A DNA stretch of 64,000 nucleotides, taken from assembly GCA_013178005.1 (NCBI GenBank), contig JABLXL010000001.1:81385-145384 (forward strand), written 5' to 3'. How positions within the stretch are numbered: the stretch's first letter is position 1; each line of letters opens with the position of its first letter. Positions 7,010-44,590 of this stretch are shown one piece after another. A program made the translations under genes and the position numbers. The notes under the pieces are model-generated. The model had not been told where the DNA came from. It saw only the letters and a program-made list of their open reading frames with translations, and did no database searches. Source of the stretch: Actinomycetota bacterium (GTDB lineage Bacteria > Actinomycetota > Geothermincolia > Geothermincolales > RBG-13-55-18).

Positions 7010-9457
7010 TCAGTCCAGGGGGTAACCCTCGGTGTTGTGTCCGCCCACGATGCTCCCGTTGTACTGGAAATACACGGGACGCTCGGCCATGATGGGCACG
7101 TCCGAGGACACCTTGATGGACACGTCCCCGTGGGCGTTGTCGTGCACCCCGATCCCCAGGCCATCGCCGTGCACGGCCACGGTGGCGCGGGAGCGCGCCT
7201 TTACCGTGAGCTCCTTGCGCACGTTGTTCCCGTCCCCGCAGAGGTAGTCGAGGGTCACCTTCGCGGGGGCGTCCCCTGGGTTTTGTAGGCAGAGCCAGGT
7301 ATGGAAACCGGGCCTGGTGCATCCCTCGGCGAAGTACCATTCCTGGGAGGGAGCCGCCGCGCCCATGACGTTGGACCCCCCATCCCAGGCCCCGTTGTAG
7401 TTGAAGTACATGGGACGCTCCGCCACCACCGGGCGGTCCGAGGACACCTTGATGGACACGTCCCCGTGGGCGTTGTCGTGCACCCCTATCCCTTCGGTGT
7501 CGCCATGCACGGCAACGGTGTATCGCGCCCTCGCCCGGACCGCCACCGTCTTGCGCACGTTGGCGCCGTCGCCGCAGAGGTAATCGAGGGTCACGTGGGC
7601 GTCTTCCTCGCCGGGGTTCTGCAGGGTGAGCCAGGTATGGAAACCGGGCCTGGTGCAGCCCTCGGCGAAGAACCACTCTTCCCGCGGAGCATCCACGGCC
7701 ATGACGTTGTGCCCTCCGGACCAGGTGCCGTTGCCGCTCTGGTAATTGAAATACAGCGCCCGCTCCGCGATGAGCCCCTCCTGGTCGGAGATGATGGAGG
7801 CGCTTACCTCCTGGCCGTCTATGGTGGTGTTCACGGGCACGGTCATGCGCGATCGCGGAGGGATGGTCACCACCTTGATCACCGATAGCCCGCTGGGCAT
7901 CAGGTACCTTATCTGGACCATGATCTCGTGGTCCAGGGGGTTCATGAGCAATATCCACTGGCTGAAGCCCTTGCCCGTGTAGCCCTCCGCCAGGTAACAG
8001 CGGCTTTTCACGGCCTCGGGAGGCCAGATGTCCGGGACCTCCTCGTGGCTGTAGGAGGCGCTGTGCCGGGCGTCCTTGCGGAACATGGGCCAGGCGGCCT
8101 TGTCGGCGCGGTAAGGACCCGTCTCCCAGCAGAAGAGCTTGCCCGTCTGCCCATCGGCGCCGGTAGCGATGATAAGCTCGGTGCGCCCGTCAGCGTCGAT
8201 GTCGCCCACCGCCACGCTGTTGAACATGTTGCCGCCCATGTCCGCGTCCAGCACGTGTTCCCCGTTGGGGTCGTAGGCCATGATGGACAGGCCTTCGGAG
8301 ATGATCACGTCCATGTCGCCGTCGCCGTCGATGTCCGCGATGGCCGGGGAGCCCATCTTCTGCACCGGCCAGAAGCAGCGCGTCCACTTTACCTTCCCGT
8401 CGTGTTCCCAGACATAGATATTGTTATCCAGGGAGCCCAGGGCGACCTCGTAGAAGCCGTCGCCGTCGATGTCTGCGACGGCGGGGGAGCCGAAGTTGTT
8501 GTTGCCGGTGTTCACGGGCCAGCCGGGGAGGCTCTCGCCGCGGTAGTTGAAGGCGTAGACGTGCTTGCCGTCGGCGTAGGAGAGGTAATTCCCCGCTCCG
8601 GGGTTGGTGTTCTGCCAGAAGAGGCCCGTGCCCACGATGACGTCGGGGAACCCGTCGCGGTCCAGGTCGGCTATGGCCGGGGAGGACCATATCACCTGGG
8701 GCAGGCATTTAGGCCACCCGTTCTTGATGGAGCCGTCCCCCTCGAAAACGTAGAGCAAGCCGCCGCGAGGCCAGGGCCAGTTGGGGCCTCCCCAGCAGTC
8801 GGCGCCTATGGCCACCTCGTCCTTTCCGTCCAGGTCGATGTCCGCGCAGGCGGGCGAGGACCACACGGTGTCGGCGTTGTAGTACTGCCAGGCCACCGGG
8901 CCTTCATAGTGCCAGGCGGTTATGTAATGGCCCCAGGAGCCCACCACGATCTCCAGGTTCCCGTCTCCGTCCAGGTCCCCGCAGGAAGGGGAGGAGAAGA
9001 CCTCCTTGTAGCCGAAGGCGGTGCCCGCGAACTTGGGCCAGCCCCAGGCGGACAGGGGTTGTCCCTGGCTGTTCAGGCCGTAAACGTACCCGTTGTCGCA
9101 CCCGAAGAAGATCTCGAGCTTCCCGTCCCCGTCGCAGTCCACGGCCAGGGGGCTTGACTGGATAGGCGCCCCGGTATAGAAATCCCAGCGTATGCCGCCC
9201 CCGGCGTCCACGCAATAGAAATGGCCGTTGCTGTTGCCTATGAGCACCTCCTGGCGGCCGTCCCCGTCGACGTCCGCGATGGTGGGGGAGGAGTGCTTGA
9301 ACATGCTCCCCATGTCGTGCATCCATTCCAGCCTCCAGCCGGGGGGGTAGGTGTAGGCCGCTGCCCGGCGCTGCGGGAGCGCCAGCAGGGCGACCGCCGC
9401 AAGGCAAACGCATGCGACGGCCAGGGGGATATAAACCAGGGTGTTCCGCGATCTCAA
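7010..9457 (-). CDS. Secreted FG-GAP/VCBS repeat protein with C-terminal tandem AEGxT/AERPMYFNY repeats (DUF5719-like)
   Basis: Many DxDGDG motifs (ADVDGDGRQEVLIGNSNG, DCDGDGKLEIFFGCDNG...). TTG start at 9457 preceded by AGGAGG (minus strand), then signal/TM-like LVYIPLAVACVCLAAVALLALP. C-terminus carries repeats EWFFAEGCTRPGFHTWLTLQNPGEED... The track's 9715 start is probably too far upstream. Confidence 0.85.
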   Translation of the reverse strand: MRSRNTLVYIPLAVACVCLAAVALLALPQRRAAAYTYPPGWRLEWMHDMGSMFKHSSPTIADVDGDGRQEVLIGNSNGHFYCVDAGGGIRWDFYTGAPIQSSPLAVDCDGDGKLEIFFGCDNGYVYGLNSQGQPLSAWGWPKFAGTAFGYKEVFSSPSCGDLDGDGNLEIVVGSWGHYITAWHYEGPVAWQYYNADTVWSSPACADIDLDGKDEVAIGADCWGGPNWPWPRGGLLYVFEGDGSIKNGWPKCLPQVIWSSPAIADLDRDGFPDVIVGTGLFWQNTNPGAGNYLSYADGKHVYAFNYRGESLPGWPVNTGNNNFGSPAVADIDGDGFYEVALGSLDNNIYVWEHDGKVKWTRCFWPVQKMGSPAIADIDGDGDMDVIISEGLSIMAYDPNGEHVLDADMGGNMFNSVAVGDIDADGRTELIIATGADGQTGKLFCWETGPYRADKAAWPMFRKDARHSASYSHEEVPDIWPPEAVKSRCYLAEGYTGKGFSQWILLMNPLDHEIMVQIRYLMPSGLSVIKVVTIPPRSRMTVPVNTTIDGQEVSASIISDQEGLIAERALYFNYQSGNGTWSGGHNVMAVDAPREEWFFAEGCTRPGFHTWLTLQNPGEEDAHVTLDYLCGDGANVRKTVAVRARARYTVAVHGDTEGIGVHDNAHGDVSIKVSSDRPVVAERPMYFNYNGAWDGGSNVMGAAAPSQEWYFAEGCTRPGFHTWLCLQNPGDAPAKVTLDYLCGDGNNVRKELTVKARSRATVAVHGDGLGIGVHDNAHGDVSIKVSSDVPIMAERPVYFQYNGSIVGGHNTEGYPLD

Positions 9458-9982
9458 TTCCGGCCTCCTGTCGTCTGCTCGAACTCGCTGCGCTGGCCCG
9501 TCCCCATCCCATAATGGCTTGGGGATCTTGCTGGTTCCCGTGCGGCCTCGGGCCTTGTGCCCCGGGACCGCCTGACCGCGGCTAGATGCATGCTCCGGGC
9601 CGCCGGCGCGTATCACCCGGGAGGCAACCAATGCTCGCCTCCCCGGGAATCCCTCTCCTGCCAGGGTTTTCTTTAAGAGGCGCCTTTTCCGGGGCGACCG
9701 GGAAAAACGCCACATAAATCACAACGATGCGAAGAGCTGTAAATAACGCCTCCGAATCGCTTATAATGTAATTCGACTTCCGGGGGGGCTCACTTGATAC
9801 GATTGCGGGTCATTGCTCGCGAAGGGGTTGATCCTTGTCAATCACCGGCATAAGACGCGATCTGCCTCGGCGGCCGAACCGCCACAAGCGCGGGGGTTTA
9901 AAATTGCCCCGTTATGGGCAGTAGATATCGCGGGCGCGGAGGAAGAGGATTGGGCACTCGATCGGACGTGGAAAAGCGGAGC

Positions 9983-11452
9983 ATGGAGACGGAAGAGCGG
10001 CCTCTGGCCAGCGTGGTGATCGCCAATTTCAGGGGCGAGACGCTCCTTGCGCCCTGCCTGGATTCCCTGCGAGCCCAGGACACGGACCTCCCCTTCGAGG
10101 TCATCGTGGTGGACGACGGCTCCGATGACGGAAGCGCCGAAATCGTGACCTCGCGCTATCCCGAGGTGAAGCTGCTGGTGAACCGCCGGAACATGGGCCC
10201 AGCGGCCGCCAAGAACGTGGGGGCTGCGGAGGCAAGGGGGGATTACATCGCCTTCCTGGACAACGACGTCGAGCTTCACCCCTCCTGGATGAAATATATG
10301 CTGGAGGCCATGACCGCGGACCACGACGGACTGGGCGCGTGCGCCTCTCACATCATGCTCAACGGCCACTCCACCGTGCTCAACAGCACGGGAGGCCTCA
10401 TAAACATGCTGGGATACGCCTGGGACCGGGGTATCTTCAACGAGGACTCCAGGACCTACTCCTATTCGCAGCGGGTGATGTACGCCTGCACCGCGGCGAT
10501 GATGATTAAGAGGGGGGTGTTCGAGGAGCTGGGCGGCTTCGACGAACGCTACCGCTACCTTTTCGAGGACGTAGACCTGGGGTGGCGGATGAACATCCGC
10601 GGCTACCGGGTGGCATACGAGCCCCGGGCTGTGGCCAGGCACCTCCTCTCCTCAACCATGGGAAGACGCCGCCTCCGCAACCAGTACCTCTACGAGCGGA
10701 ATCGCCTGCGCGCGCTGATCAAGAACATGGAGAGGGAGACCTTGAGGCTGGTGAGAAAAGAGCTCGTTTTCTGGTTCGGCCAGCGCATGCGCTCGGAGAT
10801 GGAGAGCGGACTGACCGCGCGCCAGAAGGCCGTCCTCCCCCTGCGCATGGCCCAGGCATTGGCCTGGAACCTGATCCGCCTGCCGGATACCTTGCGCCTC
10901 AGGAAGGAGGTGGCCGATACGCGCGTGGTGAGCGACCTGGAGCTCATTTCCGCGGGCGTGCTGTGCCCCCAGATCGGAGAACCCCCCGTGGGGCTCGATC
11001 CCAGGGGCAACGGGAACGGAAACGGCATCGGGATTGACGAAAGGGAGCTCGGAACCAAGGTGGAGATGGCGCGCGCGAAGCCCGCAGCCCTGGGTCCGGG
11101 TTGGTACGACCCGGAAACCGACGTCCGCGGGGTCTCCTTCCGCTGGACGGCGGAAAGCGCCTCGGTTTACCTGAGGTCGGGGAGAAGGCGCCGCCAACTC
11201 TGCATCCGCACGGTGATGGCCCATCCCGACGGCCTTTCGCGAGTCGCGGTGAGGATAGACGGCCGCCAGGTCTCCACCTTCGAAGCTCCCAACGGGTACC
11301 ACGTTCACCGCATCCCCCTGACCCATCCCGTCGAGCCTGGCTTGCGCGAGGTGGAGCTCCGGGTGGAAAATCCCTTCCGGCCCAGGGACACGCTGCGGGT
11401 CGAGGACCGCCGCACCCTCGGCATTGCGGTGGCGTACGTAGGGCTGCACTAA
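9983..11452 (+). CDS. Glycosyltransferase family 2 with appended C-terminal beta-sandwich-like domain
   Basis: ASVVIANFRGETLLAPCLDSLRAQ...VIVVDDGSDDGS...FLDNDVE... GGFDERYRYLFEDVDLGWR; C-terminal GPGWYDPETDVRGVSFRWT...; ATG 9983 preferred over track start 9914. Confidence 0.9.
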   Translation: METEERPLASVVIANFRGETLLAPCLDSLRAQDTDLPFEVIVVDDGSDDGSAEIVTSRYPEVKLLVNRRNMGPAAAKNVGAAEARGDYIAFLDNDVELHPSWMKYMLEAMTADHDGLGACASHIMLNGHSTVLNSTGGLINMLGYAWDRGIFNEDSRTYSYSQRVMYACTAAMMIKRGVFEELGGFDERYRYLFEDVDLGWRMNIRGYRVAYEPRAVARHLLSSTMGRRRLRNQYLYERNRLRALIKNMERETLRLVRKELVFWFGQRMRSEMESGLTARQKAVLPLRMAQALAWNLIRLPDTLRLRKEVADTRVVSDLELISAGVLCPQIGEPPVGLDPRGNGNGNGIGIDERELGTKVEMARAKPAALGPGWYDPETDVRGVSFRWTAESASVYLRSGRRRRQLCIRTVMAHPDGLSRVAVRIDGRQVSTFEAPNGYHVHRIPLTHPVEPGLREVELRVENPFRPRDTLRVEDRRTLGIAVAYVGLH

Positions 11453-11760: not shown

Positions 11761-11937
11761 CATCGGCCCTCGCTGGGCAAGAGGTTTAATCTTGACCGGG
11801 TTTACCGTCTCGCCTCCATGGGATAACCTATCCGGGGAGAGGGGCGTGGGTTATGGGAAAGGACCCCGCAAGGTCCGCTCGCCGGCCTCTGCGTGCCGGC
11901 GAGAACGCGGGAGCGTGAAAGTGGAGAAGCCGGCGAC

Positions 11938-13662
11938 ATGCGCATACTCCTGGTGACCTATAGGTACGGGAAGGATATTCCCGGCGGGGGGGAGAGATAC
12001 CTGCGGGAGTTGATGACCCGTCTCGCCGCGAGAGGCCATCATGTGGACGTGTTCACCACGCGCTCGCAGCGCATGATAACAACCCCTTTCAATTACCTGG
12101 TATGGGACAACTACTTGCCTGGCGGAGAAGAGGAAGACGCGGGGGTGAGAGTCCGCCGCTTCGAAGTGCGAAACCCCAGGCCCAGGCGGGCGCGGCGCAT
12201 CGTGGACGATATCCTGGCCATGCAGGAAAGGGAGAGGGAAAACCCCGCCTTTGCGGCCCTCATGGAGGAGGCCATCGCCGGCTCTGACGAGCACTGCTTT
12301 CTGTGCGGCTGGCATGACGCGGAGACCTGGGATGACGGTCCGGCGCGCTGGACGCGTCGCTCGGCGGTCCTGGTGCTGGGCGGAGAAGGGCTAGAGGGGT
12401 TGGTGATCGAGGCCTATCCCTATATGGACACCAACCTGCAGGTGGAAGTCCCGGGAGAGGGGTCCTGGGAATTCGAGCTCTCCATGGGGAGGTCCCGGGA
12501 GCTCAAAGTGGCCTTCGGACCTCGCCGCTCCGCTGTGGTCAGGATCCTGGTGCCGGGGACGGCGCGCCCGCCGGGAGACGCAAGGGAGGTGGGACTCGCG
12601 GTGCGCCGGGTGGCGGCCCTTACGCAGACCGGGGAGCGCGACTTGGACCTGGGGAGGGGCTGGAGGGAGTTTTTAAACACGGCGTGGGAATCGGCGCTAT
12701 CGAGCATTCTATGGGGGATGGCGGAACGCAGGCCGCATCGCGCCATCAGGCGCCACCGCTACATCATGGGCCCCCGCTCGCCGCTCCTGGAGCGGGAGGT
12801 GATGACCGCGGCATCGGGGTACGACGTGATTCTGGGAGCGATGGTGCCCATGACCACCCTGGAGCTGGCCTGGAAGGCGTCCCGTGCGGCCGGCCGGCCC
12901 TTCGTGGCCTTCCCGCTTTTCCACGCTCGCGACCCCAACCACTACTGGGCTCATTTCAGGAAAGCCTTGGAGGGCGCGGCGGGGGTCGAGGCCAACTCCG
13001 GCGCGGTGGAGGAGCTGATGAGGGGATGGGGGCTCTCGTCTTTCGCCGTCGGGCCCGGATACGATCTCGACGAGTTTTCCTCCCCCGATATCGACGGCCA
13101 CAGGTTCAGGGAGGACTTCGGCTTCGGAAACCAGCCTATCCTGCTCTGGGTGGGGAGGAAGAACGAGTACAAGGGATACCGCGACGCCATGGCCGCCCTG
13201 CGCCTGGTGAGGGAAAAGGAACCCGAGGCCCTGCTGGTGATGATCGGTCCTGACGAGGACAACCTGCCCGTGAGCCAGGAAGGCGTCTTCTACCTTGGGG
13301 CGCAGCCCCGCCGCGTGGTGCTGGATGCCTTCGACGCATGCGACGCCCTCCTCTTCCCCTCGCTGCACGAGAGCTTCTGCCTGGTTTTCGGGGAGGCCTG
13401 GTTAAGGGGAAGGCCCGTGCTGGGCAACGCCTACTGCGCCGCGGCGCGTGGCATCATAGACCACGGCGTGGACGGCTACTTATGCGGGGACGTGGAGGAC
13501 TACGCGTGTCGCGCACTGGAGCTCATCGAGGACCCGAGCCTCGCCCGCCTCATGGGGGAGCGGGGCAGGGAGAAAATGATGGCCACGCGAGGATGGGACC
13601 TCCTGGTGGAGCGCCTGGAGGCAAAACTCCTCCAGGTCGCGGGAATTCAACCCGAGGACTGA
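11938..13662 (+). CDS. Glycosyltransferase family 4 (GT-B) with inserted beta-sandwich-like domain
   Basis: MRILLVTYRYGKDIPGGGERYLRELMTRLAARGHHVDVFTT at the N-terminus; C-terminal half ILLWVGRKNEYKGYRDAMAALRLV...LFPSLHESFCLVFGEAWLRGRPVLG. Middle segment LCGWHDAETWDDGPARWTRRSAVLVL... is not part of a standard GT-B fold. Start at ATG 11938. Confidence 0.88.
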   Translation: MRILLVTYRYGKDIPGGGERYLRELMTRLAARGHHVDVFTTRSQRMITTPFNYLVWDNYLPGGEEEDAGVRVRRFEVRNPRPRRARRIVDDILAMQERERENPAFAALMEEAIAGSDEHCFLCGWHDAETWDDGPARWTRRSAVLVLGGEGLEGLVIEAYPYMDTNLQVEVPGEGSWEFELSMGRSRELKVAFGPRRSAVVRILVPGTARPPGDAREVGLAVRRVAALTQTGERDLDLGRGWREFLNTAWESALSSILWGMAERRPHRAIRRHRYIMGPRSPLLEREVMTAASGYDVILGAMVPMTTLELAWKASRAAGRPFVAFPLFHARDPNHYWAHFRKALEGAAGVEANSGAVEELMRGWGLSSFAVGPGYDLDEFSSPDIDGHRFREDFGFGNQPILLWVGRKNEYKGYRDAMAALRLVREKEPEALLVMIGPDEDNLPVSQEGVFYLGAQPRRVVLDAFDACDALLFPSLHESFCLVFGEAWLRGRPVLGNAYCAAARGIIDHGVDGYLCGDVEDYACRALELIEDPSLARLMGERGREKMMATRGWDLLVERLEAKLLQVAGIQPED

Positions 13663-14006: not shown

Positions 14007-16094
14007 ATGGCAGGAGAGCGCGCCTTGAAAGCTTGTATCGTGGTCGGCGTCACTTTCATCATGCTGGCATCAATGACGGCGGCACTGGTGGTGTCCCGCA
14101 ATGCCAAAGCCGGCGCGGGAACACAGGCCGCGAGCGCGGCCGACATGACCATCCTGGGGTTGGATACGCGCGATTACGCGAAGCGCATGTCCAATCTCGT
14201 AAGCCTCTCGGACAGGCAATGGGTGCGCCATCATAAGATCGTGGTGAGGTGGAGCGATATCCACAAGGCGAAAAACAGCTTCGACTTCTCCTACTACGAC
14301 AAAGAGGTAAACGCCAGGCTCGCGGACGGCTCGCAATCCATCCTCCTCCTCCTGCAGGGACCCACCCCTGAATGGGCGCGCGACCCCGCCTACGGTTCCT
14401 TCTCCCACAACGCGCCCCCCCGCGACTGGAGCGACTGGTACCGCTTCTGCTCCAAGGTTGCGGAACAATACGGGGCAGTGGTTGATTTCTACGAGATCTG
14501 GAACGAACCCGGATGGGACCAGGATGCCTACGCTTACAGGCAGTGGGGGGTTTACCATTTTGGCGGGCAGGTGGAGACGGACTACCTGCCCATGCTCCAG
14601 ACGGCGCACGCGGCCATAAAGGAAAAGGACCCCTCGGGCCAGGTGATGTGCGGCGCCCTCATCTATACCCTGGACCAGAATCCCAACACGGGAGCCGACC
14701 TCACGGTGCAGCTCTACGATGAGGTGAACCGGCCCGGCCAGGACGTTTCCATGCGGGTGACCTCCGACAGGCCCATCGTGGCCGAGCGCCCCATGTATTT
14801 CAACTACAAGGGCGCGTGGAACGGGGGGCACGACGTGCTGGGCGCCACCTCGGCCGCGAAGGAGTGGTTCTTCGCCGAGGGCACCACCCGCGACAACTTC
14901 GAGGAATGGCTGTGCCTGCAGAACCCCAACCCGAACCCCATACAGGTCACGGCCACCTACATGTTCGGCCCCGGACAGGGAGGGAACACGGTCAAGGCGT
15001 ATGACCTGCAGCCCAACTCGCGCACCACCCTCATGGTCAACAACGAGGTGGGCCAGGGAAAGGACGTCTCGGTCAAGATAACCTCCGCCTCGGACTTCAT
15101 CGCCGAGCGCCCCATGTACTTCAATTACAACGGGGTCTGGACGGGAGGGCATGACGTGGTGGGCGCCACCTCGGCCGCGAAGGAGTGGTTCTTCGCCGAG
15201 GGCACCACTCGCGGAGGCTTCGACCAGTACCTGTGCCTGCAGAACCCCAACGCGAACCCCATTGACGTCACCATGACCTTCATGTTCGGGCCCGGGCAGG
15301 GCGAGAACCGGGAGATGGCCTTCCGCCTCGACCCCACCTCGCGCACCACCTTCAAGGTCAACGACCTGGTGGGCCCGGACAAGGACGTCTCGGTCAAGAT
15401 AACCTCCGCCTCGGACTTCATCGCCGAGCGCCCCATGTACTTCAACTACAACGGGGTCTGGACGGGAGGGCACTGCGTGGTGGGAGCCAAAGCTTCCTCG
15501 GGGACCTGGTACTTCGCCGAGGGCTGCACGGGGTATTCCATCCAGGAGTACCTCTGCCTGCAGAACCCGCATCCCGAGGCGGTGACGGCGGAGATAACCT
15601 TCATGATGACCAAAGGCGAGGTCATCAGCAGAGAGGTGTTATTGAATCCCAACTCGCGCACCACCTTCGACATCAACATGCTCATCGGTTTCCATGGCTC
15701 GTCGGACATGCTGGCCATCCATCCCTACAAGAACTACTGGGAGTGGGGTGAGCATTACACGTATTTCACGCAGCAGATGCGCGCACACAACATAGGTCAC
15801 GAGGTGGCGGTTACCGAGGTTGGGTGGCCGCATTACAGCGACACCCAGCCGGAACTCTACAGCGAGGAAAAGCAGGCCGAGGCCATCGGTTCCGTGGGCG
15901 TGGGAGAGCTTCTGGGGGCGGGCTGCAGGAAGATATGGCTGTACCGCGATATCGACGAGGAGCCCGGGACGTCTTGGGACCATCTGTATTTCGGCCTTTT
16001 CAAGCACACGGGTGAGCCTCATCCCTCCTGGCCTATTTACGTACAGTGGCAGAGGCAACTGCCGAGCTATCCGAATCTCCCGGGGAGCCTGTGA
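14007..16094 (+). CDS. Secreted/anchored GH39/GH5-like glycoside hydrolase, TIM barrel interrupted by three DUF5719-like repeats
   Basis: N-terminal TM/signal; FDFSYYDKEV...PEWARDP...VVDFYEIWNEPGW (acid/base-type motif) before, and DMLAIHPYKNYWEW...HEVAVTEVGWPHY (nucleophile-type motif) after, three repeats containing AERPMYFNY(K/N)G(A/V)W(N/T)GGH...W(F/Y)FAEG(T/C)T. Confidence 0.8.
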   Translation: MAGERALKACIVVGVTFIMLASMTAALVVSRNAKAGAGTQAASAADMTILGLDTRDYAKRMSNLVSLSDRQWVRHHKIVVRWSDIHKAKNSFDFSYYDKEVNARLADGSQSILLLLQGPTPEWARDPAYGSFSHNAPPRDWSDWYRFCSKVAEQYGAVVDFYEIWNEPGWDQDAYAYRQWGVYHFGGQVETDYLPMLQTAHAAIKEKDPSGQVMCGALIYTLDQNPNTGADLTVQLYDEVNRPGQDVSMRVTSDRPIVAERPMYFNYKGAWNGGHDVLGATSAAKEWFFAEGTTRDNFEEWLCLQNPNPNPIQVTATYMFGPGQGGNTVKAYDLQPNSRTTLMVNNEVGQGKDVSVKITSASDFIAERPMYFNYNGVWTGGHDVVGATSAAKEWFFAEGTTRGGFDQYLCLQNPNANPIDVTMTFMFGPGQGENREMAFRLDPTSRTTFKVNDLVGPDKDVSVKITSASDFIAERPMYFNYNGVWTGGHCVVGAKASSGTWYFAEGCTGYSIQEYLCLQNPHPEAVTAEITFMMTKGEVISREVLLNPNSRTTFDINMLIGFHGSSDMLAIHPYKNYWEWGEHYTYFTQQMRAHNIGHEVAVTEVGWPHYSDTQPELYSEEKQAEAIGSVGVGELLGAGCRKIWLYRDIDEEPGTSWDHLYFGLFKHTGEPHPSWPIYVQWQRQLPSYPNLPGSL

Positions 16095-16159: not shown

Positions 16160-17272
16160 GTGCGCGCGGCCATATTCGCTGACCAGCTCTTCTACCGCCA
16201 ACCGGGCGGGATAGGAACCTACCTGCGTCACCTGGTGCCCGGGATCGCGGCGTCGCCGTCGGTGGATTCCCTGGCGTTGGTCCATCACGGCCCGGAGGGA
16301 GAGCGCGCCTTCCAGGGTCTTGATAAGGTGGAGGAGGTCCGCCTTCCCTGGCGGCGGGACCTAACGGGGATCTCGTGGCACACCGTAGGCAGGCCTTATC
16401 TGGAGCGCTGTGTGGGCCGGGTGGACCTGGTCCACGCCCCCTCGCTGGTTTACCCGCCTTCACGCGCCTCCCTGGTGGCCACGGTGCACGACCTCTGCGT
16501 GCTGAAATACCCCTGGGTCTTTCCCACCCGATGGCGCGCTTTCCACCGCCGCGGACTGCACATGATAGTGAGACGCGCCCGCGTCATCCTGGTCGATTCC
16601 GAGAACACCCGGGAAGACCTGCGCGCCCTCACCGGGGGGCGCGATCCAAGGGTGAGGGTGGTCCCCCTCGGGGTCGAGGTCCGGTTCGATCCGGACGATG
16701 ACGAGGTGGAGAAGGTCCTGGGAAAACACAGGCTTGAGCCCGGCTACATCCTCTACGTGGGGACTATCGAGCCGCGCAAGAACCTCTCGCGCTTGGCGCG
16801 AGCGTACGCCACCTTCGGCGCGGAGGAGAGGCGGAGATGCGGGGAGCTCGTCCTGGTCGGTTCGCCGGGCTGGATGGGAAGGCGCGAGCTCTCGGGCATC
16901 CTCTCCCTGGGCGGCGTGAGGTGGCTGGGCTACCTTCCCCAGGAAGAGCTGGAAGCGGTCTACAGGGGAGCGAGGATCTTCGTGTACCCTTCCATATACG
17001 AGGGCTTCGGCCTGCCCGTCCTCGAGGCTATGGCCAGGGGGTTGCCCGTGGTGACCTCCAACAGCTCCTCCCTGCGCGAGGTGGGGGAGGGGGTGGCGCT
17101 GCTGGTGGATCCGGGAGATGTCATGGACATCGGAAGGGCCATACGACGCCTTGCGGACGATGAGGGCATGCGCAATGAGCTTGCTCTCCTGGGACGAAAG
17201 CGGGCGGCAGCATACCGGTGGGAGCGCACCATCGAGCTGACCCTGGAGGCTTACAAGGATGCCCTGGTTTGA
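16160..17272 (+). CDS. Glycosyltransferase family 4
   Basis: GGIGTYLRHLVPGI...ATVHDLCVLKYPWVFP...ILYVGTIEPRKNLSRLARAY...VYPSIYEGFGLPVLEAMARGLPVVTSNSSSLREVGEGVALLVDP. Confidence 0.92.
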   Translation: MRAAIFADQLFYRQPGGIGTYLRHLVPGIAASPSVDSLALVHHGPEGERAFQGLDKVEEVRLPWRRDLTGISWHTVGRPYLERCVGRVDLVHAPSLVYPPSRASLVATVHDLCVLKYPWVFPTRWRAFHRRGLHMIVRRARVILVDSENTREDLRALTGGRDPRVRVVPLGVEVRFDPDDDEVEKVLGKHRLEPGYILYVGTIEPRKNLSRLARAYATFGAEERRRCGELVLVGSPGWMGRRELSGILSLGGVRWLGYLPQEELEAVYRGARIFVYPSIYEGFGLPVLEAMARGLPVVTSNSSSLREVGEGVALLVDPGDVMDIGRAIRRLADDEGMRNELALLGRKRAAAYRWERTIELTLEAYKDALV

Positions 17273-42635: not shown

Positions 42636-44590
42636 CAGGAGTTTCCGAGTCAACCACCTTTCTCCTCCGTAAATCCCCAGCATAAAAGCCATTTCCAAGC
42701 GCCTGAAAACATAAGACCCCACAGGTAGCGATTATCAACCGGGATAAAAGCCCAGGTAGCAATTGAATGGGGCACATATTGTGCTTGACATGTAAATATA
42801 TTGTGTACATGGCTCACTTCCACATAAAGAAGAAGAGAGGAAGACCCTACCTCTACGTGCGGGAGATCGCCAGGGTAGACGGGAAACCCAAGGTGGTCTC
42901 CCAGGTGTATGTGGGCTCGCCCGAGAAGGTGGCCGCCCTGGCCAAGGGAGAGCTTACGGAAGAGATAAAGCTCCGGGTGGAGGAGTTCGGGGCGCTCTTT
43001 GTGGCCAACCTCATGGATGAGGACGTGGACCTGGCGGGGATAGTGAATGCCGTGGTGGGAAGGGGGGGCAGGGAGGAAGGCCTAAGCGTGGGCGAGTACT
43101 TCCTCTACGCCGTCTTGAACCGCATGGTGGAGGCGAAAAGCAAGCGCGCCCTTGCGGAGTGGTACGAAAAGACGGCGGTGCAGCAGATAAGGCCCACAGA
43201 TGTATCCAGGCTCTCAAGCCAGCGCTACTGGGAGAGGTGGGAGCGGGTGAGCGAGGAGGACCTGGCGGAGATCAGCCGGCGCTTCTTCCAAAGGATCGCC
43301 GAGCTGGAAAGACCTCGGGCCGACTGCCTGCTCCTGGACACCACCAACTACTACACCTACATGGCCACCCATACCCCCTCAGATCTGGCTAGAAGGGGCC
43401 ACAACAAGGAGGGGAAGCATCACTTAAGGCAGGTGGGCCTGGGGCTTCTTGCGGAGCGGGAGTCAGGCCTCCCCTTGTGGTGGTGCGCCTACCCCGGGAA
43501 CCTGCACGACTCCCGCCTGTTTTCCCAGGTGCTAGAGGAGTTCGCCCGCGTTCTCGAGGGGCTTGCGGGCACCAAGGAGAGGCTCACCGTGGTCATGGAC
43601 AAGGGCATGAACGCAGACGCCAACTACGCGGTGATCGACGAACACAGAAGGATACACTTCGTAACCACCTACTCCCTCGCCTACGCCCCGGAGCTCGCCC
43701 GCATCCCCCTCTCGCGCTACGCGCCAGCGGCCACGGGCAGGAACCGGAGGCTTTGCGGAGAGGGGAGGGAGGAAGAGAGGCTTTCCGCCTACCGCACCAC
43801 CGGGACCTTCTGGGGCAAGGAGCGGGCGGTGGTGCTGACCTACAACCCGCGAACCGCCAGGAAGCAGGAACACGTCTTTTCAGAGAAGCTAGCCCAGATG
43901 AGGGAGGAGCTCCTTTCCATGCGCGCCCTGGTGCGCGAGGGCGCTCCCCACTGGCGAGACGAGAGGAAGGTGCTCGAGAGGTACGCCAGGCTCTGCGAGA
44001 GGCTGCACCTGCCGACCCATCTCTACGAGGTCTCCTTGGAGAAAACCCCCGAGGGCCTTGCCATGGAGTTCAGGAAGAACCAGCATGCAACCGAGAGGAG
44101 GCAGGCCCTCTTCGGCAAGAACATGATCGTAACCGACAACACTGACTGGACCACGGAGGAGATCATAGAGGCCTCGCTCGCAAGGTGGGAGGTGGAGGAC
44201 GCCTTCCGCCTCTCCAAGGACTGCGACCTGGTGGGGGTGCAGCCCATCAGGCACTTCACGGATTCCAAGATACGCTGCCACCTTTTCTGCTGCGTGGCCG
44301 CCCTCGCCTACCTGCGCAGGCTGGAGAAGAAGCTGGCAGAAGCCGGGGTGAAGCGCACGGCCAAAGACGTCATGGAGGACATGCGCCATCTCCATTCCGT
44401 GCTCTCCATCGCCGACAAGGGGAGAACGCCGGTGCGCAAGCTGGAGATGCCCACGAAGACCCAGGCCGAAGTCCTAAGGGCCCTGGGGTACCAGGTGAAC
44501 AAGCGTGGGGTCTTACAGTCTCTTGCCCGCTGATACCCATCCTATGCAGGCATTTTGTAGAGAGCAGCCCGGCTATCTCGGAAACTCCTG
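42636..44590 (+). mobile_element. Complete IS1634-like (IS4 superfamily) insertion sequence with TIRs and 5-bp TSD
   Basis: Left end CAGGAGTTTCCGAG (42636-42649), right end CTCGGAAACTCCTG (44577-44590), exact inverted repeats; flanked by TCAAA (42631-42635 and 44591-44595). Confidence 0.9.
42809..44533 (+). CDS. IS1634-family transposase
   Basis: MAHFHIKKKRGRPYLYVREIARVDGKPKVVSQVYVGS...LLLDTTNYYTYMATH...ERLTVVMDKGMNADANY...WEVEDAFRLSKDCDLVGVQPIRHFTDSKIRCHLFCCVAALAYLR. Start ATG 42809 preferred over 42767. Confidence 0.93.
   Translation: MAHFHIKKKRGRPYLYVREIARVDGKPKVVSQVYVGSPEKVAALAKGELTEEIKLRVEEFGALFVANLMDEDVDLAGIVNAVVGRGGREEGLSVGEYFLYAVLNRMVEAKSKRALAEWYEKTAVQQIRPTDVSRLSSQRYWERWERVSEEDLAEISRRFFQRIAELERPRADCLLLDTTNYYTYMATHTPSDLARRGHNKEGKHHLRQVGLGLLAERESGLPLWWCAYPGNLHDSRLFSQVLEEFARVLEGLAGTKERLTVVMDKGMNADANYAVIDEHRRIHFVTTYSLAYAPELARIPLSRYAPAATGRNRRLCGEGREEERLSAYRTTGTFWGKERAVVLTYNPRTARKQEHVFSEKLAQMREELLSMRALVREGAPHWRDERKVLERYARLCERLHLPTHLYEVSLEKTPEGLAMEFRKNQHATERRQALFGKNMIVTDNTDWTTEEIIEASLARWEVEDAFRLSKDCDLVGVQPIRHFTDSKIRCHLFCCVAALAYLRRLEKKLAEAGVKRTAKDVMEDMRHLHSVLSIADKGRTPVRKLEMPTKTQAEVLRALGYQVNKRGVLQSLAR

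Follow-up and report, generated by a model that had tools for sequence, protein, structure and literature searches.

The closest precedent for the protein described below is provided by the Xyn10C-like GH10 xylanases of the Bacteroidetes, such as Pm25, in which the barrel is interrupted by two whole CBM4 domains located between strand 3 and helix 3 (PMC7848910). Nested domain insertions of the form A1-B1-C-B2-A2 are likewise a described class, with TIM barrels noted as preferred hosts (PMC13114784). Two further systems bear on the present case. One is PslG of Pseudomonas aeruginosa (PDB 4zn2, 5bx9), an enzyme classified in family GH39 and encoded in the Psl exopolysaccharide cluster (PMC11912335). 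The other is the ASRAH superfamily, whose members are predicted sugar binders found as dyads or tetrads, with a Trp at the start of strand 1 and an Asn at the end of strand 2. Two of them, TM1070 and ASRT, form tetramers with clefts that arise partly at the subunit interfaces, and other ASRAH families have their own residues at the sugar cleft (PMC2739507). A literature search for an interrupted GH39 enzyme returned no paper.

Here, we describe a protein that is probably an exported PslG-like glycosidase, with a barrel split by a permuted ASRAH anchor domain and nested copies of the same domain, and that would trim the exopolysaccharide of its own cell.

Architecture of the split barrel

The window (the whole 64,000-nucleotide stretch of DNA analysed here) contains an ORF of 695 amino acids, open at positions 14007-16094 of the forward strand according to the ORF list and its translation. 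The initial annotation had described it as a barrel with an IWNEPG-containing half before and a TEVGWP-containing half after three repeats, and the ORF, the motifs and the repeat spacing were all recovered. IWNEPG begins at residue 164 (position 14496) and TEVGWP at residue 603 (position 15813), and the three repeats follow each other at a spacing of 321 nt, with 70-79% DNA identity to the first copy. The protein comprises the following parts:

14007..14126, + strand: N-terminal hydrophobic leader (residues 1-40), a probable export signal or membrane anchor, read directly in the sequence
14127..14726, + strand: barrel part A1, strands 1-5 and helix 5 (residues 41-240, ending in ...LTVQLYDEV), from the AlphaFold2 secondary structure and the profile match to PslG
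14505..14507, + strand: predicted acid/base Glu167 (WNEP), invariant in 21 homologs and equivalent to PslG Glu165 by its position after strand 4
14727..14864, + strand: first half-unit B1, strands 7-8 of the putative permuted anchor domain (residues 241-286, NRPGQDVS...ERPMYFNY...; unit profile positions 63-104)
14865..15185, + strand: internal whole ASRAH/DUF5719 domain 1, canonical phase (residues 287-393, WFFAEG...)
15186..15506, + strand: internal whole ASRAH/DUF5719 domain 2 (residues 394-500)
15507..15686, + strand: last half-unit B2, strands 1-6 of the putative permuted anchor domain (residues 501-560, WYFAEGCTGYSIQEYLCLQNPH...SRTTFDINMLI; unit profile positions 1-58)
15687..16091, + strand: barrel part A2, strands 6-8 (residues 561-695, starting with GFHGSSDMLAIHPY)
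15816..15818, + strand: predicted nucleophile Glu604 (TEVGWP), invariant in 21 homologs and equivalent to PslG Glu276

Some homologs (L080, AIPGC; L137, VTAGC; also L145) carry a lipobox-like motif in the leader, which suggests a lipoprotein form in some members.

The barrel alone matched no Pfam family at E ≤ 1, with neither a GH39 nor a GH10 match, NCBIfam gave no useful name, and a PDB search with the single barrel sequence returned no meaningful match. A profile was needed: built from nine barrels, it matched PslG at E 1e-11 over positions 23-312, and in this alignment PslG is continuous at the insertion site. As the barrel has no Pfam glycoside hydrolase match, we call it PslG-like and do not file it as GH39. 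Its previous designation as a GH39/GH5-like clan A enzyme is supported in the clan GH-A type, but the nearest solved enzyme is PslG and not a GH5 member.

AlphaFold2 models of the window protein (pLDDT 79.5, pTM 0.69, with weak stretches at the junctions) and of the one-unit homolog L080 (pLDDT 82.9, pTM 0.85) both predict a barrel of eight strands, with correctly ordered helices and with the insert between helix 5 and strand 6, and in both cases the top Foldseek match is PslG. In the L080 model, the only one of a one-unit form, the permuted sandwich is predicted with confidence and sits between the same two elements. By the rule that generally applies to this fold, the loop between helix 5 and strand 6 should be on the opposite side of the barrel from the active site. 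The proposal of a nested-domain, clan GH-A-type barrel that retains both catalytic Glu residues and is interrupted just before the HPY strand is borne out by these results.

Both catalytic Glu residues are invariant in all 21 homologs, and the residues of the HPY region are invariant in the nine closest members. An Asn preceding the acid/base Glu (NEP) is usual in clan GH-A, where W-Q-E-P is unusual. The window protein reads NEP and TEVGWP; in families f4-f7, WQEP replaces NEP, with the Glu kept. Among the f4-f7 members L132, L135, L138-L141, L143 and L144, the motif is mostly W-Q-E-P, with W-G-E-P in L141. Relative to a same-genus homolog, the two barrel halves have dN/dS ratios of 0.064 and 0.071, at a dS near saturation, and, judged by these ratios, both are under strong purifying selection.

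The insert as a permuted ASRAH domain with nested copies

The insert spans 320 residues, and the protein passes the gathering score of Pfam DUF5719 (PF18986) with 44.3 bits against a cut-off of 26.2. For a profile of the canonical-phase unit, the top PDB match was TM1070 (1nc7), aligned from its starting Trp at E 3.4e-5, with ASRT matched more weakly, and Foldseek aligned the model of the window protein to TM1070 over 112-116 columns (probability 1.00, TM 0.79). Of 12 units, 8 matched the Pfam ASRT model, with a lowest E value of 5e-4; the one score compared with the cut-off, from the ORF at 7010-9715, was 22.7 against 25. W1 and N20 are invariant in the unit alignment. The SHE..C sugar-cleft signature of the ASRT-like family is absent, as the units read FEEWLCLQN or FDQYLCLQN, with the Cys present and the His missing; the TM1070 ligand His is not retained either.

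A canonical unit begins with WxFAEG, as does TM1070. Tail arrays run in this canonical phase, from WxFAEG to the GGH region, both in paralog L098 and in another gene of the window, which serves as a comparison:

7010..9715, - strand: FG-GAP protein whose C-terminal array of ASRAH/DUF5719 repeats is in canonical phase

The barrel array, by comparison, begins at strands 7-8 and stops after strands 1-6. In well-preserved members, its end pieces match unit profile positions 63-104 and 1-60 and, placed in swapped order, give one full-length domain match; degenerate members, in which the half-unit matches do not overlap, yield a weaker version of the same picture. Because the end pieces are complementary in swapped order, the insert is best described as a circularly permuted domain that encloses whole copies. 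On these alignments, it is better read as two whole canonical domains flanked by complementary half-domains that would form one permuted domain, and we infer that the half-units pair with each other in multi-unit members as well.

The initial annotation had noted the same repeat phase at entry and exit, which is correct and holds in all 21 homologs, and had concluded that a whole number of repeats was inserted, in agreement with the insert lengths, which in all homologs approach whole multiples of a ~103-110-residue unit (0.96-4.92 units of 107 residues), more closely than chance would give. Its 'surface-protein repeat stalk' survives in part: the repeats are real, and we recast them as ASRAH/DUF5719 beta-sandwiches in a circularly permuted array that would enter and leave the barrel through one split domain. 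Taken as a whole, the earlier interpretation is partly supported.

Conservation in Ca. Geothermincolia

With the repeat-free barrel as the query, the barrel of the relatives was found as two separated halves. In 17 genomes, 21 full-length homologs share both the insertion site and the phase; they represent six of the seven families of Ca. Geothermincolia, a class assignment based on named relatives such as Ca. Solincola. In the seventh (f3, genome G030), a split copy is broken over two contigs (L130, L131). Among 397 sampled genomes of the phylum, 28 of the 31 that belong to this class carry the gene, and the ~366 genomes outside it contain a single relative, which is weaker and continuous. 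Within the sampled phylum, the split form was thus seen in Ca. Geothermincolia only, and the interruption is a real, inherited protein design. An assembly chimera is ruled out by this class-wide conservation.

The number of units varies from one (L080, L137) through two (L038) and three (the window protein as assembled, L071, L035, L072 and L086) to four, the commonest state (12 of the 21 sequences), and five (L136). The two one-unit forms belong to different families and have kept only the permuted domain. Two genomes contain a second copy close to an intact one: L086 (G011:C8) has diverged, and the three units at its insertion site are eroded; its intact counterpart is ~12 kb away, and in G005 the reduced copy L080 lies ~24 kb from an intact one.

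The search also recovered close homologs without the insert. L129 (G029:C5) and L130 (G030:C37) encode continuous, repeat-free barrels with a short HRxQD(W/Y)CDAF loop at the insertion site, and both genomes also carry the split form.

Evolution of the array

The units of the array differ in their histories. In family f1, the internal N-halves are 84% identical within a protein and ~55% identical between homologs, whereas the last N-half is 65% identical between homologs and 43% identical to the internal copies of its own protein. Measured against the same-genus homolog, synonymous divergence amounts to 0.32 in the internal units, ~0.8 in the end halves and 1.3-2.0 in the barrel. By these sequence comparisons, the internal units evolve in concert and the anchor is stable. 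In families f4-f7, the four units are position-specific homologs, with 221 of 224 best matches at the same position. In the window's own family, internal units are gained, lost and homogenised, and in other families the units are mostly fixed at four.

Genomic context

The gene is embedded in a cluster of glycosyltransferase genes:

9914..11452, + strand: glycosyltransferase family 2 gene of the same cluster (Pfam; same order in L036 and L040)
11893..13662, + strand: GT4-type glycosyltransferase, immediately upstream (Pfam; synteny)
16160..17272, + strand: GT4-type glycosyltransferase, immediately downstream (Pfam; synteny)

The order GT2-GT4-split enzyme-GT4 is common to this locus, L036 and L040, and L154, from another family, has two GT4 genes, one GT2 gene and a flippase-like polysaccharide synthesis protein as its neighbours.

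Farther downstream, positions 28000-54000 have a G+C content of ~51-58% within a region of 62-67%. Besides numerous GT4 genes, this stretch encodes an ABC transporter ATPase and a DDE transposase (42767-44533); it has the appearance of an acquired polysaccharide island. A tRNA scan of the 64-kb window found none.

Discussion

Misassembly was a fair worry at this locus because the genome contains more than 100 DUF5719/ASRAH repeat hits on many contigs, several of them at contig ends that lie inside repeats; this large surface-protein repertoire probably fragments the assemblies of the class. The barrel halves of genome G013 are, moreover, located on different contigs. Nevertheless, an identical split, with reading frame and phase intact, is shared by 17 genomes from different families, together with synteny, so that the fusion of a barrel gene with a repeat gene by misassembly or by recent recombination, both raised in the initial annotation, is extremely improbable. 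Recent recombination at microhomology is likewise rejected here: the longest word common to both junction windows is 9 nt, and the split predates the families of the class. A microhomology-type join could still have been the ancestral event. Less settled is the direction of change between the two barrel forms. The best tree places the two continuous homologs, L129 and L130c, in a polytomy with the split lineages, and only 3% of bootstrap trees place the split group on one side of a branch, as might be expected if the insert were ancestral and these two proteins had lost it instead of preserving a pre-insertion state. We consider such a loss possible but doubtful, since a single clade of split forms is not rejected by the AU test (p 0.395) and the barrel is uninterrupted in the farther relatives, namely PslG and the GH39-like paralogs within the class.

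Different arrangements of the array are also conceivable. Its terminal half-units could pair with neighbouring units, turning it into an extended stalk that leads out of the barrel and back or into a dimer-forming, domain-swapped arm. The tandem organization with linkers of ~20 residues and the tetrameric state of TM1070 and ASRT, with their partly interfacial clefts (PMC2739507), speak for this arrangement; yet, the one-unit forms keep exactly two complementary halves, modelled as a sandwich, and the terminal half-units form a lineage of their own apart from the internal copies (65% against 43% identity), which makes it improbable. It is tempting to see in the four-unit form the TM1070/ASRT homotetramer condensed into one chain: four ASRAH domains would close into a ring, opened between strands 6 and 7 of one member and plugged into the back of the barrel as a composite sugar-binding pedestal. 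The predominance of four units and their position-specific conservation in families f4-f7 would fit this idea. However, one, two, three and five units occur too, and we regard it as unlikely. Finally, the replacement of NEP by WQEP in families f4-f7 and the divergence of the barrel beyond the reach of any Pfam glycoside hydrolase model might indicate a catalytically dead scaffold or lectin, with the barrel as a mere platform for the repeats. Given the invariance of both Glu residues and, in the nine closest members, of the HPY region, and the purifying selection on both barrel halves, we judge this to be very unlikely.

The architecture of a PslG-like barrel split by a permuted anchor domain is, by contrast, well supported. 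We propose that a permuted ASRAH (DUF5719) domain, with zero to four further tandem copies, was inserted between helix 5 and strand 6, most simply once, in the ancestor of Ca. Geothermincolia. Its terminal half-units would fold together as one anchor domain, which would bring the two ends of the array next to each other and thereby allow the barrel to close across it. The barrel may then cut or trim the exopolysaccharide produced by the adjacent glycosyltransferases, while the ASRAH units, as a binding platform on its back, could bind polysaccharide or the cell surface and so keep the enzyme at its substrate. We infer catalysis, substrate and sugar binding alike, the most likely role being that of a secreted endoglycosidase that processes the cell's own exopolysaccharide and is held by built-in sugar-binding modules.

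An array spliced in mid-domain into a TIM barrel combines a permuted inserted domain with a host under strong selection, inside which the copy number changes. Together with the continuous homologs and the paralogs with C-terminal tails, the series from one to five units amounts to a natural experiment on insertion versus tail fusion, its origin and its tolerance. The protein also suggests that a predicted exopolysaccharide-processing enzyme is typical of this uncultured class within the Actinomycetota, and it places the uncharacterised DUF5719 family in a context.

Comparison with known systems

Like the Xyn10C-like xylanases, the protein is, by prediction, a retaining-type TIM-barrel glycoside hydrolase with a lineage-conserved interruption by tandem beta-sandwich modules, which are CBMs in the xylanases. 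Unlike them, it has a PslG-like barrel without a Pfam GH10 match, an insertion site after helix 5, ASRAH units in one to five copies and, at the junction, a split domain that is circularly permuted, so that it does not belong to that group. PslG is the best sequence-profile and fold match to the barrel, has the two catalytic Glu residues at the same places and is likewise encoded amid exopolysaccharide glycosyltransferases, but at the position of the insert its sequence runs on without a break and contains no ASRAH domains. With the ASRAH superfamily (ASRT, TM1070; DUF5719), the units share homology from the starting Trp to the VPIV strand, the Trp of strand 1, the Asn at the end of strand 2 and an occurrence in multiples, including tetrads (PMC2739507); they differ in that the array is permuted by two strands, resides inside an enzyme, lacks the ligand His of the SHE..C motif and ranges from one to five copies. 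As in nested A1-B1-C-B2-A2 proteins, the host is interrupted by a domain that is itself interrupted, although the innermost domains are here tandem copies of the inserted family itself, in varying number. What is new relative to these systems is the barrel family, the insertion site, the junction formed by a permuted split domain, the variable number of whole copies and the retention of the design throughout a bacterial class.
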